A stretch of DNA of 64,000 nucleotides, from assembly GCA_027676805.1 (NCBI GenBank), contig JAQENU010000007.1, forward strand, positions 62,001 through 126,000, given 5' to 3'. Under the pieces are notes generated by a model that was not told the origin of the DNA, searched no databases, and was given only the letters and a program-made list of their open reading frames with translations. This document shows positions 16,984-63,927 of the stretch, piece after piece. The first letter of the stretch is position 1, and each line of letters begins with the position of its first letter. Position numbers and translations under genes: made by a program. This stretch comes from Coprobacillaceae bacterium UN01-12pH3A (lineage in GTDB: Bacteria; Bacillota_I; Bacilli_A; Erysipelotrichales; Coprobacillaceae).

Positions 16984-17844
16984 TTATTTCTTACTGATAT
17001 TTTTATAAATAAACAGCATACGATCTTTCCCATTGATATCTTTTAGTATTTCAAAAGGATAATCAGGGAAATAATGTTTAACTTCTTTTTCCATGTCTTC
17101 TTTTTGATCATATCCCATCTCAAAAGCTAAAACAGCTTTATCTTTTAAAATGGCTTCTACACTATTAAAGATCTGACGATAAAAATCAAGTCCATCCTGT
17201 CCGCCAAATAAGGCAACATGGGGTTCATGATCTTTCACTACGCTTTCGATGTCCTGCTGAACCGGAATATAAGGCGGATTAGAGACAAAGATGTCTACTT
17301 TAATTCCTGCATCAATTAATGGCTGTACCATGTCGCCTTGCATAAACGTAATCTTTGCATTATTGTTTTCAGCGTTCTTTTTCGCAGTTTCCAATGCCTC
17401 ATTAGAAATGTCTGTTGCCCAAACATTTAAGCGCGGTTCTTCACATTTTAAAGACACTGCAATAGCTCCGCTTCCAGTCCCAACATCACATAAATCAATA
17501 GGATCCAAATCTTCAAAATAATCATCAATAGCGTATAAAATATGTTCAACTAATTCTTCAGTTTCATAACGGGGAATTAAAACATCTTGGTTCACAATGA
17601 AATCTCGACCAAAAAAGTTTTCAACACCCTTGATATATTGTATGGGTCTTCCTTTTAAATATTCATTTATTCCATCTTGAAAGGAAGTTAAAACAGCTTC
17701 ATCAACCTCTTCATCCATCATCAGATAAAGTTCATGGGGTTCTTTATCAGCAAGGTGATAGAACCATACTTTTGCTACTTGGATGTCTTTTCCTTGTTCT
17801 TCCAATTGTTTTTCCGTTTGACGTATTAATTCCCTGACAGTCAT
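16984..17844 (-). CDS. prmC: Release factor glutamine methyltransferase
   Basis: 286 aa SAM-dependent enzyme that methylates the GGQ glutamine of release factors. The SAM motif DVGTGSGAIAVSL and the catalytic NPPY (VSNPPYIP) are intact; the N-terminal helical domain is present. It shares one base with prfA (TAATG), the normal prfA-prmC coupling, so the enzyme is made with its substrate. Confidence 0.96.
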   Translation of the reverse strand: MTVRELIRQTEKQLEEQGKDIQVAKVWFYHLADKEPHELYLMMDEEVDEAVLTSFQDGINEYLKGRPIQYIKGVENFFGRDFIVNQDVLIPRYETEELVEHILYAIDDYFEDLDPIDLCDVGTGSGAIAVSLKCEEPRLNVWATDISNEALETAKKNAENNNAKITFMQGDMVQPLIDAGIKVDIFVSNPPYIPVQQDIESVVKDHEPHVALFGGQDGLDFYRQIFNSVEAILKDKAVLAFEMGYDQKEDMEKEVKHYFPDYPFEILKDINGKDRMLFIYKNISKK

Positions 17845-18920
17845 TATTGTTCTTCTCCAGCTAATTTCAAGCGCTGATCTTCATTCACTAACGCTGTGAT
17901 TAAATCATCAATGCGTCCTTCCATGATACGATCCAATTGTTGTACAGAATATCCGATACGGTGATCTGTCACACGATTTTGCGGATAGTTATATGTTCTG
18001 ATTTTTTCTGCGCGATCTCCGGTTCCGATCTTACTTTTTCTTTCACTGCCGATTGCTTGTTCCTGTTCTGTAATCATCTTATCGTAAATTCTTGTGATTA
18101 AAGCTTTCATTGCTTTATCTTTATTATCATGCTGACTGCGTCCATCCTGACTTGAGGCAACAATCCCCGTTGGCAAGTGGGTAATACGCACTGCTGAATC
18201 AGTTTTGTTGATATGCTGACCACCGGCTCCTGATGCACGGTAAGTATCAATACGCAAATCACCCGGATTAATATCTACATCGACTTCTTCTGCTTCCGGC
18301 ATCACTAACACCGTTGCTGTTGAAGTATGAATTCTTCCTTGTGTTTCTGTCTTTGGCACACGCTGTACTCGATGTGACCCGGATTCAAATTTCAGCTTTG
18401 AATAAACGCCGTCCCCTTTTACCATGAAAGAAATATTACTAAATCCTCCCGCTTCGGCTTCTGTTGCTTCCATTAAATCTATAGACCATCCTTGAGACTC
18501 TGCATATTTTGTATACATACGGTAAAGGTCTCCGGCAAAAATATTTCCTTCATCTCCGCCTGCTGCTCCTCGAATTTCGACAATAACGTTTTTCATATCA
18601 TTTGGATCTTTTGGAATCAATTCTAAATGTAGTTTTTCTTCTACTTCTACTAATCTCTCTTCCAGTTCAGCTAATTCCATTTTAGCCATTTCTTTAATTT
18701 CCGGATCATTTTCCTTTGCAAGTTCTTTTGCTTCTTCAATGCCAGTTGTTACTTTTTTGTATTCCTGATATAAATCATAAGCATTTTGCAAGCTGGCTTG
18801 CTCTTTGGTCACTTCTGTCATTTTCTTGATGTCTTCTCCGATACTAGGGTCCATCAGCATCTGATTTAACTCTTCATATCGTCTCTCCATCGATTCTAAT
18901 CTATCAATCATGTTGTTCAT
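17844..18920 (-). CDS. prfA: Peptide chain release factor 1
   Basis: 358 aa. Recognises UAA and UAG. The catalytic loop GAGGQHINKTDSAVR holds GGQ, and the codon-reading loop occurs earlier in the usual place for RF1. GGAGG lies eight bases before the first ATG; a second ATG three codons later is possible. It heads the prfA-prmC unit. Upstream lies a 430-bp region carrying two putative small-RNA units rather than rpmE, which precedes prfA in many Firmicutes. Confidence 0.97.
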   Translation of the reverse strand: MNNMIDRLESMERRYEELNQMLMDPSIGEDIKKMTEVTKEQASLQNAYDLYQEYKKVTTGIEEAKELAKENDPEIKEMAKMELAELEERLVEVEEKLHLELIPKDPNDMKNVIVEIRGAAGGDEGNIFAGDLYRMYTKYAESQGWSIDLMEATEAEAGGFSNISFMVKGDGVYSKLKFESGSHRVQRVPKTETQGRIHTSTATVLVMPEAEEVDVDINPGDLRIDTYRASGAGGQHINKTDSAVRITHLPTGIVASSQDGRSQHDNKDKAMKALITRIYDKMITEQEQAIGSERKSKIGTGDRAEKIRTYNYPQNRVTDHRIGYSVQQLDRIMEGRIDDLITALVNEDQRLKLAGEEQ

Positions 18921-18991
18921 GGTTTATACCTCCAAATCTTTAATATTATATACTATTATATATAAATAATCAAAATATAATCTACTAGAAA

Positions 18992-19123
18992 CAAAAAAAT
19001 CATGATTTTCTCATGATTAATTGACAAAATGGGGAAAGGTACTGCATTGCAGTACCTTGGGGATTAGTGTAGGTGCTTATTTTGGGAGAGGGGCACCTAC
19101 ATTATTATTATTGTCCTTCGACA
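18992..19123 (-). ncRNA. Putative small RNA B (C-rich loop, paralogue of RNA A)
   Basis: A promoter-hairpin-hairpin-terminator unit with no reading frame. Minus-strand order: -10 TATTAT (19130-19135); short hairpin TGTC-GAAG-GACA; A/T-rich spacer; hairpin GTAGGTGC/GCACCTAC whose loop shows CTCTCCCA; linker with TCCCC; a palindromic hairpin AAGGTACTGCA/TGCAGTACCTT (about 19036-19058); and a final hairpin ATCATGA/TCATGAT followed by seven T (18993-19017). RNA A has the same architecture with compensating base changes. C-rich loops of this kind are typical of Firmicutes sRNAs that pair with ribosome sites (RsaE/RoxS and LhrC types). End points are estimates. Confidence 0.62.
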
Positions 19124-19144
19124 TAGAATATAATACTCAATAAA

Positions 19145-19161
19145 TATGAATTAAATATGAA
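19145..19161 (-). promoter_or_regulatory. Pho-box-like direct repeat upstream of small RNA B
   Basis: Minus-strand TTCATA-N5-TTCATA, an 11-bp period, placed nine bases upstream of the TATTAT -10, where a -35 would be. The hexamer fits the B. subtilis PhoP half-site TT(A/C/T)A(C/T)A and the arrangement fits OmpR/PhoB-class regulators. Copy A has the identical spacing. Confidence 0.5.
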
Positions 19162-19205
19162 CTTTGAAAAAAATGTTTAAATAAAAATACAAATCATTGT
19201 TTATA

Positions 19206-19315
19206 CAAAAAGACAACCACTGTTACCAGAGTGGTTGTCTTTTATGGGGAAATTTTGTAGGTTAATTGTTTGGGAGAGTTTTTCCTACAGTTATTATTAT
19301 GTTGTCCTTTGACAA
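19206..19315 (-). ncRNA. Putative small RNA A (C-rich loop, paralogue of RNA B)
   Basis: Minus-strand unit: -10 TATTAT (19320-19325); hairpin TTGTC-AAAG-GACAA; A/T-rich spacer; hairpin TGTAGG/CCTACA with CTCTCCCAAA exposed in a large loop; linker with TTCCCCA; then a strong terminator AGACAACCAC/GTGGTTGTCT followed by T-rich sequence (19207-19241). It starts about 40 bp after the tdk stop codon. Shared blocks with RNA B (AAGGACAA, ATAATAATAA, CTCTCCCA, TCCCCA) and covarying stems indicate a duplicated structured RNA. Alternative: two unrelated hairpin-rich tails of tdk, which would not explain the matching promoters. Confidence 0.65.
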
Positions 19316-19334
19316 ACATATAATAACAATTCTA

Positions 19335-19351
19335 TATGAATTATTTATGAA
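19335..19351 (-). promoter_or_regulatory. Pho-box-like direct repeat upstream of small RNA A
   Basis: Minus-strand TTCATA-N5-TTCATA, nine bases before the TATTAT -10 (19320-19325), with no separate -35 hexamer, as in activator-dependent Pho promoters. It lies four bases from the tdk stop codon. Same geometry as the copy at 19145-19161. Confidence 0.52.
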
Positions 19352-19354
19352 CAT

Positions 19355-19957
19355 TTAAAGTTTTTTTAATTTAGGTTTGTCGGGTACGCTATGGCAATGA
19401 CGACAGCGCGGTTCATAGTGATCCGTAGCTCCAACCAGCACAATTGGATCATCAAATGAAGCCGGTTCACCATTAATCAAACGCTGTGTTCGTGTTGCCG
19501 GCGCCCCGCATTTTGCACAAACAGCAGTTAATTTTGTTACAAATTCTGCTCTTGTTAATAACTCCGGCATAACTCCAAATGGTTCTCCTCTAAAATCTTT
19601 ATCCAATCCGGCAACCATCACGCGTTTTCCTTGATCTGCCAAATAATCGCAGATTTCAACGATATCTTTATCTAAAAATTGTACTTCATCAATAGCGACA
19701 ACATCAATTTCCGGATCTTTGCTGACATAATCTAAAATATCAACTGCTTTGTCCACAACGATACAGTCAATGCGTGTTCCTGAATGAGATACGATTTGTT
19801 TTTCTGAATAACGGTTGTCAATTCTTGGTTTAAAAATCACAATCTTCTTTTTCGCATAGCTCAAGACATTTATTCTTCGGATCAATTCTTCCGTTTTACC
19901 TGCGAACATACATCCGCAAATGACTTCTAGCCATCCTTCTCTATATTGATGATACAT
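19355..19957 (-). CDS. tdk: Thymidine kinase
   Basis: 200 aa type-II thymidine kinase (thymidine plus ATP to dTMP). Walker A-like [11 protein letters not shown] (about 15-25), Walker [10 protein letters not shown], and a zinc ribbon with paired cysteines CAKCG and CRHC near the C-terminus are all present. It follows dnaB by 12 bases. In B. subtilis tdk is likewise near prfA. The sequence is intact. Confidence 0.97.
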
Positions 19958-63639: not shown

Positions 63640-63927
63640 AACGGTTCCTCCACTGTATAATATAAAAACGCAGGCAATGCCTGCGATTAAGATAGCTGAA
63701 AATAATAGTTTCACCATTTCATCTCTTGATCTAATCCAAGCATTAATACTTAGTATAGTCACAAGTTTACACCTGTCTAAAATCGGCTTTTGACCCGGCT
63801 GTCCGTTGGCCTTTAACACTGTCGTGTGGTCAAAAATAAGAAATAACTTATTTCGTATGTTCTTATCGAGCGCAGTCATGCGTTCTCCAAAATTAGTGTG
63901 ATGTATGAAATAGCTTCTTGTTATCAC
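63640..63927 (-). promoter_or_regulatory. Long structured 5' leader of the polyamine operon
   Basis: About 288 nt separate the promoter from speD. Minus-strand features: stem GTGAT/ATCAC near the 5' end; stem TTTGACC/GGTCAAA enclosing two small hairpins (ACAC-GACA-GTGT and GGC/GCC) about 110-60 nt into its middle; and an intrinsic terminator next to the speD ribosome site. The design fits attenuation by a small-molecule sensor or leader peptide. I could not match it to a named riboswitch class. The leader is also open in the speD frame, so a short leader peptide from ATG near 63879 (GGAGAACGC before it) is possible. Confidence 0.5.
63662..63686 (-). terminator. Attenuator-like terminator before speD
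   Basis: CGCAGGC/GCCTGCG with a 3-nt loop followed on the minus strand by TTTTTATA, only about ten bases before the speD GGAGG. Confidence 0.8.

Follow-up and report, generated by a model that had tools for sequence, protein, structure and literature searches.

Tandem, box-driven units with C-rich loops between tdk and prfA represent a newly seen family of predicted small RNAs

We analyzed a 64-kb stretch of DNA from a Coprobacillaceae bacterium (hereafter, the window) and found, on its minus strand between tdk and prfA, two units (19351–19207 and 19161–18993, promoters included) that represent a newly seen family of structured, conserved, and mostly box-driven elements; as a statement about sequence, this is nearly certain. 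It is quite probable that the units of this family are small RNAs (sRNAs) under two-component control, and fairly likely that they act by C-rich pairing at ribosome sites. The box, the hairpins, the covarying stems, the predicted unpaired C-runs, and the spread are read from sequence, and transcription, two-component control, and pairing with target mRNAs are what we infer. In the mechanism proposed here, an OmpR-type response regulator acting at a TTCAYA-N5-TTCAYA box would switch on the units, and their exposed C-rich loops would pair with G-rich ribosome sites and repress translation, with each RNA presenting several equivalent C-rich sites. The reading that we favor is therefore a multicopy, two-component-controlled sRNA family whose C-rich loops repress translation, similar to LhrC and the csRNAs, and we hold it to be reasonably likely.

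Architecture, folding, and conservation of the two units

An earlier note, made from the letters alone, had described two homologous, tandem sRNA-type genes in the tdk–prfA gap, and all of the elements that it listed were present on the minus strand (Table 1). The promoter that it considered common to the units is indeed shared, with the addition that neither copy has a TTGACA; instead, an exact TTCATA-N5-TTCATA repeat lies 9 nt before TATTAT in each. Exact copies of this box occurred only twice in the window and four times in the 2.9-Mb genome of Beduini massiliensis, two of the four being at this locus. The combined pattern of 5′ motif, spacer, and CTCTCCC was found twice in 64 kb (mean of 0.00 in 100 dinucleotide shuffles), whereas CTCTCCC alone was ordinary (2 in the window, 3.37 expected). 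An extra hairpin and a third C-run precede the terminator in unit 2 only. Each unit had been said to end in a terminator, and terminator-like hairpins were visible in both folds, although a simple terminator scan of the window flagged neither.

Table 1. Coordinates of the features at the tdk–prfA locus in the 64-kb window
Feature	Position	Strand	Basis and remarks
tdk (thymidine kinase), upstream gene	19355..19957	-	ORF, named by eye; tdk-like gene near relatives' units
Box 1, TTCATA-N5-TTCATA direct repeat, 11-bp period	19335..19351	-	Exact match; OmpR-type site by layout (likely); same box in relatives
Unit 1 -10 element TATTAT	19320..19325	-	Sequence; 9 nt after box 1; same spacing in relatives' units
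Unit 1, predicted small RNA, about 107–109 nt	19207..19315	-	Predicted start ~19313; fold z; model R1 match
Unit 1 5′ hairpin GTC-AAAG-GAC	19304..19313	-	Sequence and fold
Unit 1 spacer ATAATAATAA (AUAAUAAUAA in RNA letters)	19291..19300	-	Sequence
Unit 1 main hairpin TGTAGG...CCTACA	19256..19289	-	Loop with CTCTCCCA at 19278–19271; sequence, fold, covariation
Unit 1 C-rich linker TCCCCA	19245..19250	-	Sequence
Unit 1 intrinsic terminator, 14-bp stem and T-run	19207..19243	-	Fold; perfect 14-bp inverted repeat 19243–19208
Box 2, TTCATA-N5-TTCATA direct repeat	19145..19161	-	Exact match
Unit 2 -10 element TATTAT	19130..19135	-	Sequence; predicted start ~19123
Unit 2, predicted small RNA, about 131–133 nt	18993..19125	-	Fold z; model R1 match
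Unit 2 5′ hairpin GTC-GAAG-GAC	19113..19122	-	Sequence and fold
Unit 2 spacer ATAATAATAA	19102..19111	-	Sequence
Unit 2 main hairpin TGTAGGTGC...GCACCTACA	19068..19101	-	Loop with CTCTCCCA at 19090–19083; sequence, fold, covariation
Unit 2 first C-rich linker TCCCCA	19058..19063	-	Sequence
Unit 2 extra hairpin AAGGTACTGC/GCAGTACCTT, then third C-run TTTCCCCA (19037–19030)	19030..19058	-	Sequence and fold
Unit 2 intrinsic terminator	18993..19018	-	Fold; 30/30 bases conserved over 19017–18988
prfA promoter-like site TTGATT-17-TATAAT, separate	18945..18973	-	Consensus match only
prfA (release factor 1), downstream gene	17844..18920	-	ORF

Unit 1 (z = −3.9) and unit 2 (z = −6.6) each folded more stably than every one of 200 shuffled counterparts, and the mean z over 42 units of the window and its relatives was −5.9. 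This set comprised 49 promoter matches with CCC, minus 9 removed by eye (coding sequences, mRNA leaders, one overlap, and one plus-strand match in the window), plus 2 added by hand. In these units, CCC was predicted to be unpaired with a mean probability of 0.92, compared with 0.79 in shuffles and 0.21 for G; its exposure exceeded the unit's own shuffle mean in 35 of 42 and fell in the top tenth of shuffles in 28 of 42, figures that are descriptive because the units were pre-selected for CCC and include near-identical pairs (window and B. massiliensis). The main loop holds C-rich sites both in Beduini and in many relatives; the remaining sites are in the linkers in Beduini, whose terminator loops are free of C-runs, and in the terminator loop in those relatives.

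The main stems of the two units differ in sequence and yet pair as the note had stated (TGTAGG/CCTACA and TGTAGGTGC/GCACCTACA), and the covariation that it read from this difference proved real: across 32 distinct rows, both sides changed in 11 of 16 pairs overall and in 8 of the 9 pairs of the main stem. Paired cells made up 90.1% of this alignment, which was fitted to the structure and so favors pairing, compared with 79.1% after shuffling and 28–53% after sliding. The covariation score was reached by 0 of 500 shuffles, and the number of further pair types, one of five covariation measures, by 21 of 500. The fold is thus conserved with compensatory changes, in an alignment fitted to it.

The window is 90% identical over 8 kb to B. 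massiliensis, which NCBI taxonomy places in the family Erysipelotrichaceae. The RNA cores of both units were 98.6% identical between the two, compared with 89.4% for tdk and 92.7% for prfA, and the stretches from the box to the −10 element were 100% and 97% identical; the least-kept stretch was that before the unit 2 terminator (7/10). However, the inter-unit gap (93.3%) and the leader of prfA (98.5%) were well kept too, so the RNAs do not stand out by conservation alone. A search of a phage collection gave no match for the locus. Elsewhere, the only match in the window to reach an Rfam gathering score was the SpF59 sRNA (63783–63832, minus strand, 53.1 bits), which may be a polyamine-gene leader because it lies directly upstream of a speD-like start (by eye).

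Spread across the family and beyond

The earlier note had proposed a covariance-model search of relatives as a check, and such a search found matches in 28 of the 43 family genomes. The model, R1, comprises the 5′ hairpin and the main hairpin only, with no promoter and no terminator, and was seeded with 25 of 31 listed units, the ends of the main hairpin being set by typed motifs. It yielded 35 matches in 30 sources, with units 1 and 2, both of them seed sequences, scoring 49.8 and 48.1 bits. Under strict filters, 10 of 392 genomes in a sample of the phylum matched, all ten being members of the family. Although R1 contains no promoter, a box scoring 11/12 or 12/12 lay exactly 9 nt from the −10 element at 19 of the 29 non-seed matches, so that RNA alone led to the box at its characteristic spacing; three others had a 10/12 box at 9 nt, and seven had no box and instead a TTGACA −35 element (one TTGACT) with the −10 element at 17 nt, one of the seven also scoring 10/12 for a box at 10 nt. 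A terminator-like hairpin was present downstream of 28 of the 29 matches, 17 of which were judged by eye; a script detected the hairpin at 11 of the remaining 12.

The seven TTGACA-type copies (L130, L131, L134, L081, L083, L193, and L196), whose promoters are near-consensus and sigma-A-type, each lie upstream of a box-bearing copy in a tandem pair; the genomes concerned are G035, G036, G037, G038, G040, G041, and G043. A pyrG-like gene is close to the pair in four of them (G035, G037, G038, and G041). R1 copies numbered 1 to 4 per genome, with two or more in 13 of 28 genomes, so that the arrangement in Beduini, with tandem or multiple copies, is a common one.

With the promoter pattern included, which added G007, G010, G018, G027, G031, and G032, units were found in 34 of the 43 family genomes; neither R1 nor the promoter pattern gave a unit in the other nine (G008, G011, G015, G016, G017, G019, G020, G025, and G030). 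The promoter pattern without any RNA feature had 29 matches in 20 of the 43 genomes, compared with 4 in the reversed control. By eye, 18 of these 29 head C-rich units with terminators and 11 do not, some of the latter preceding protein genes. Four genomes have a box promoter ahead of an mreB-like gene (L055, L057, L058, and L076), and a SpoIID/M23-peptidase-like pair lies upstream at L055 (by eye). L011 was dropped as a unit, being coding sequence by eye. In B. massiliensis, a weaker 10/12 box with a −10 element (G001:C2:122445, minus strand) lies ahead of a possible hairpin-plus-terminator unit with CUUCC (by eye), possibly a third Beduini copy.

At the level of the order, box plus C-run matched in 32 of 315 genomes, 24 of them in the family, and the reversed control gave none among the matches listed. 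By its matched stretch, a more distant unit is common to five of the eight non-family genomes (G299, G300, G301, G303, and G304), and the other three matches (G121, G216, and G217) look like mRNA leaders. A sample of the class gave 10 matching genomes of 395, nine in the family, with control matches in one genome. The exact pattern scan across genomes returned five loci (L001–L005), including Beduini (L004) and a Lachnospiraceae locus that shares the 5′ motif (L003; 3000–2940, minus strand, on an uncultured Lachnospiraceae contig), where AAGGACAACAGCATAATAATAA is followed by CTCTCCCC; this element may be a chance match or a distant relative.

The prfA search gave a match in all 43 family genomes (in G041 only 38% and release-factor-like), and the region upstream could be read at 29 of 30 loci. 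Among these 29, a shorter unit occurs on the opposite strand in eight other genomes; it has the same box at the same spacing, its −10 element reads TATTAT (TATGAT in one genome), and downstream of this element come a short hairpin, CCCTCCC, and a terminator. Additional units near tdk or prfA are present in G010 and G018. A broader idea, on which we are evenly divided, is that the family would run a hub for post-transcriptional stress control in which a single OmpR-type box would drive several unrelated scaffolds (three-, two-, or single-hairpin, on either strand at the tdk–prfA gap) that share only exposed C-runs, such that a promoter code rather than an RNA sequence is inherited; one genome group would join a housekeeping TTGACA-type copy to a box copy, giving a basal plus an inducible dose. 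Such basal-plus-inducible tandem pairs would constitute a concrete dosage hypothesis, and the promoter signature together with the covariance model identifies loci in 34 of 43 genomes at which the regulon can be tested.

Candidate regulators, possible targets, and rival readings

The PHO box and the HssR box have a repeat layout similar to that of the present box. Judged by this layout, TTCATA-N5-TTCATA is likely an OmpR-type response-regulator site; the CiaR site, TTTAAG-N5-TTTAAG, has a comparable layout, with an 11-bp period and adjoining the −10 element, in the available part of its description (PMC8186281). In G021–G024, the units flank an operon of an OmpR-type regulator and a kinase (Pfam Response_reg, Trans_reg_C, and HisKA), and there are up to four tandem 11-bp half-sites; none of the 25 NCBIfam models listed attained its cut-off. 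This suggests, by guilt by association, a link between the operon and the box. We did not accept this pair as the general regulator, as a relative with more than 50% identity occurred in only 8 of the 43 genomes (G007, G021, G022, G023, G024, G037, G040, and G042, the last two being partial). At E 1e-55, the search matched in 33 of 43 genomes, but most of these matches, at 42–45% identity, were of a second, L118-like type; of the 10 genomes without a match, eight have units (G001, G014, G029, G035, G036, G039, G041, and G043), B. massiliensis among them.

B. massiliensis has 16 OmpR-type regulators above the Pfam cut-off, and no response-regulator gene of Beduini had the full box. L118, the best response-regulator candidate there, reached a box score of 15 at its own promoter, a score also reached by 28 of 1876 genes, and L118-type promoters at 19 other loci scored 11–14. 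A phosphate regulator, considered from what we take to be the PHO-box layout, was rejected: the B. massiliensis response regulator beside phoU/pst-type genes (by eye) has TTAACA, not TTCATA, repeats at its own promoter. A unit is found downstream of an ABC ATPase gene in G007, G021, G022, G028, G033, and G034; the accompanying permease, where tested, scored slightly below the Pfam cut-off for FtsX. At L138 and L139, the neighbors of the unit-adjoining ABC exporter genes include FMN-binding, flavodoxin, and MarR-like genes (by eye), a hint of redox or heme stress.

To look for possible targets, we predicted duplexes at the starts of 1880 genes, which a simple script had called in 2.0 Mb of the B. 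massiliensis genome. At −10 kcal/mol, the unit 1 loop matched 403 of 1880 gene starts, compared with 154 of 1880 coding windows, and the reversed loop matched 364 of 1880 starts. The best site, GTTTGGGAGGG, lies at the start of a gene for a ZIP-type transporter (by eye; −20.2 kcal/mol) and was conserved in 0 of 19 other readable relatives, one of which had only 14 nt upstream (the gene matched in 41 of 43 genomes; of 30 loci given, 20 had readable cores, including B. massiliensis, and 10 were unreadable by motif). As to the complementarity of the C-rich loops to ribosome sites, which the earlier note had claimed, gene starts did match more often than coding DNA, but the reversed query did nearly as well and the best site was not kept where it could be read. 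Such an outcome would be expected if C-rich RNA had an affinity for ribosome sites in general, and it does not prove any target.

Exposed repeated motifs, together with a target complementarity that hardly exceeded its control, are also what would be expected of protein sponges, in which the C-runs or 5′ hairpins bind an RNA-binding protein and not mRNAs, and the Beduini 5′ hairpin contains AAGGA, which resembles CsrA sites. We consider sponges unlikely, and rejected the CsrA version because AAGGA is absent from most of 25 aligned relatives, whereas the C-runs are kept. Moreover, in LhrC, according to the accessible part of its description, exposed C-rich motifs in such a layout are mRNA-pairing sites (PMC4132741).

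It is likewise unlikely that the units serve as 5′ leaders or attenuators for prfA and other downstream genes and are not free sRNAs. They do precede prfA and share its strand, the box precedes protein genes elsewhere (mreB-like in 4 genomes), and the three leader-like matches in the order point the same way. However, a terminator-like hairpin ends each unit and prfA has its own promoter-like site; the unit linked to tdk/prfA is on the opposite strand in the eight other genomes, and the genes beside relatives' units are unrelated ones, namely pyrG, ABC transporter genes, and a kinase operon (names mostly by eye). That the units are merely a small repeat or mobile element with no regulatory role, for which the presence of several copies in some relatives (as many as 4 by R1) might speak, is very improbable, given a copy number of 1 to 4, the box, fold, and terminator kept by most copies, core conservation above that of coding sequence, and no phage match. 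Least probable of all is that the units encode small peptides, as the ATG frames of 25 codons in unit 1 and 15 in unit 2 would allow, since the length of the longest frame varies between 0 and 25 codons among 42 units (10 or fewer in 32 of 42), the longer ones shown look unrelated, and the stems change by compensatory changes.

Relation to described small RNAs

Consistent with the earlier note, which knew of no described family at this locus, we found none by Rfam gathering-score or E-value searches or in the open-licence literature. No Rfam family reached its gathering score here; the 12 matches with E up to 5 included no LhrC, the RsaE/RoxS models gave no match, and the best bit score, that of RsaA, was 24.2 against a gathering score of 50 (E = 0.062). 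The open-licence papers searched held no earlier description of such an sRNA in gut bacteria of the Erysipelotrichia, and the available part of one survey mentions the family once, for another motif (PMC11109978). Of the likeness to LhrC, RsaE, and RoxS that the note had pointed to, the LhrC layout stood, and membership in RsaE/RoxS or LhrC by Rfam model did not.

RsaE/RoxS resemble the window units in having C-rich unpaired motifs, but to our knowledge they are not arranged as box-driven tandem copies. As for the box itself, the HssR box of hrtAB, which we take to read GTTCATATTNNGTTCATATT, compares with GTTCATATTTAATTCATATT in unit 2. The literature, in the part available, does contain a direct repeat for HssR. 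RsaE is grouped with UCCC sRNAs in the accessible part of the LhrC paper (PMC4132741).

The closest parallels to the sRNA family that we favor are LhrC and the csRNAs, here as described in the available parts of the two papers. LhrC is multicopy in Listeria monocytogenes: of the five copies (LhrC1–5), four share a locus and all depend on LisRK, and LhrC has three UCCC sites able to bind the ribosome region of lapB (PMC4132741). The window family shares the multiple copies, the C-rich layout, and two-component control, which is proven for LhrC (PMC4132741) and would apply to the window by inference, whereas the window units differ in their 5′ GUC hairpin, AUAAUA spacer, own promoter box, lack of an Rfam match, and, in Beduini, terminator loops without C-runs. 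In streptococci, several csRNAs answer to one regulator, CiaR, through a TTTAAG-N5-TTTAAG repeat (PMC8186281). The window family has the same hexamer-N5-hexamer design with identical N5 spacing, but its half-site is TTCAYA, and both units read TTCATA-N5-TTCATA and not the CiaR box. If our reading is true, the family would be a further case, beside LhrC and the csRNAs, of two-component, multicopy, C-rich sRNAs in Firmicutes, and would bear on the repeated origin of this design.
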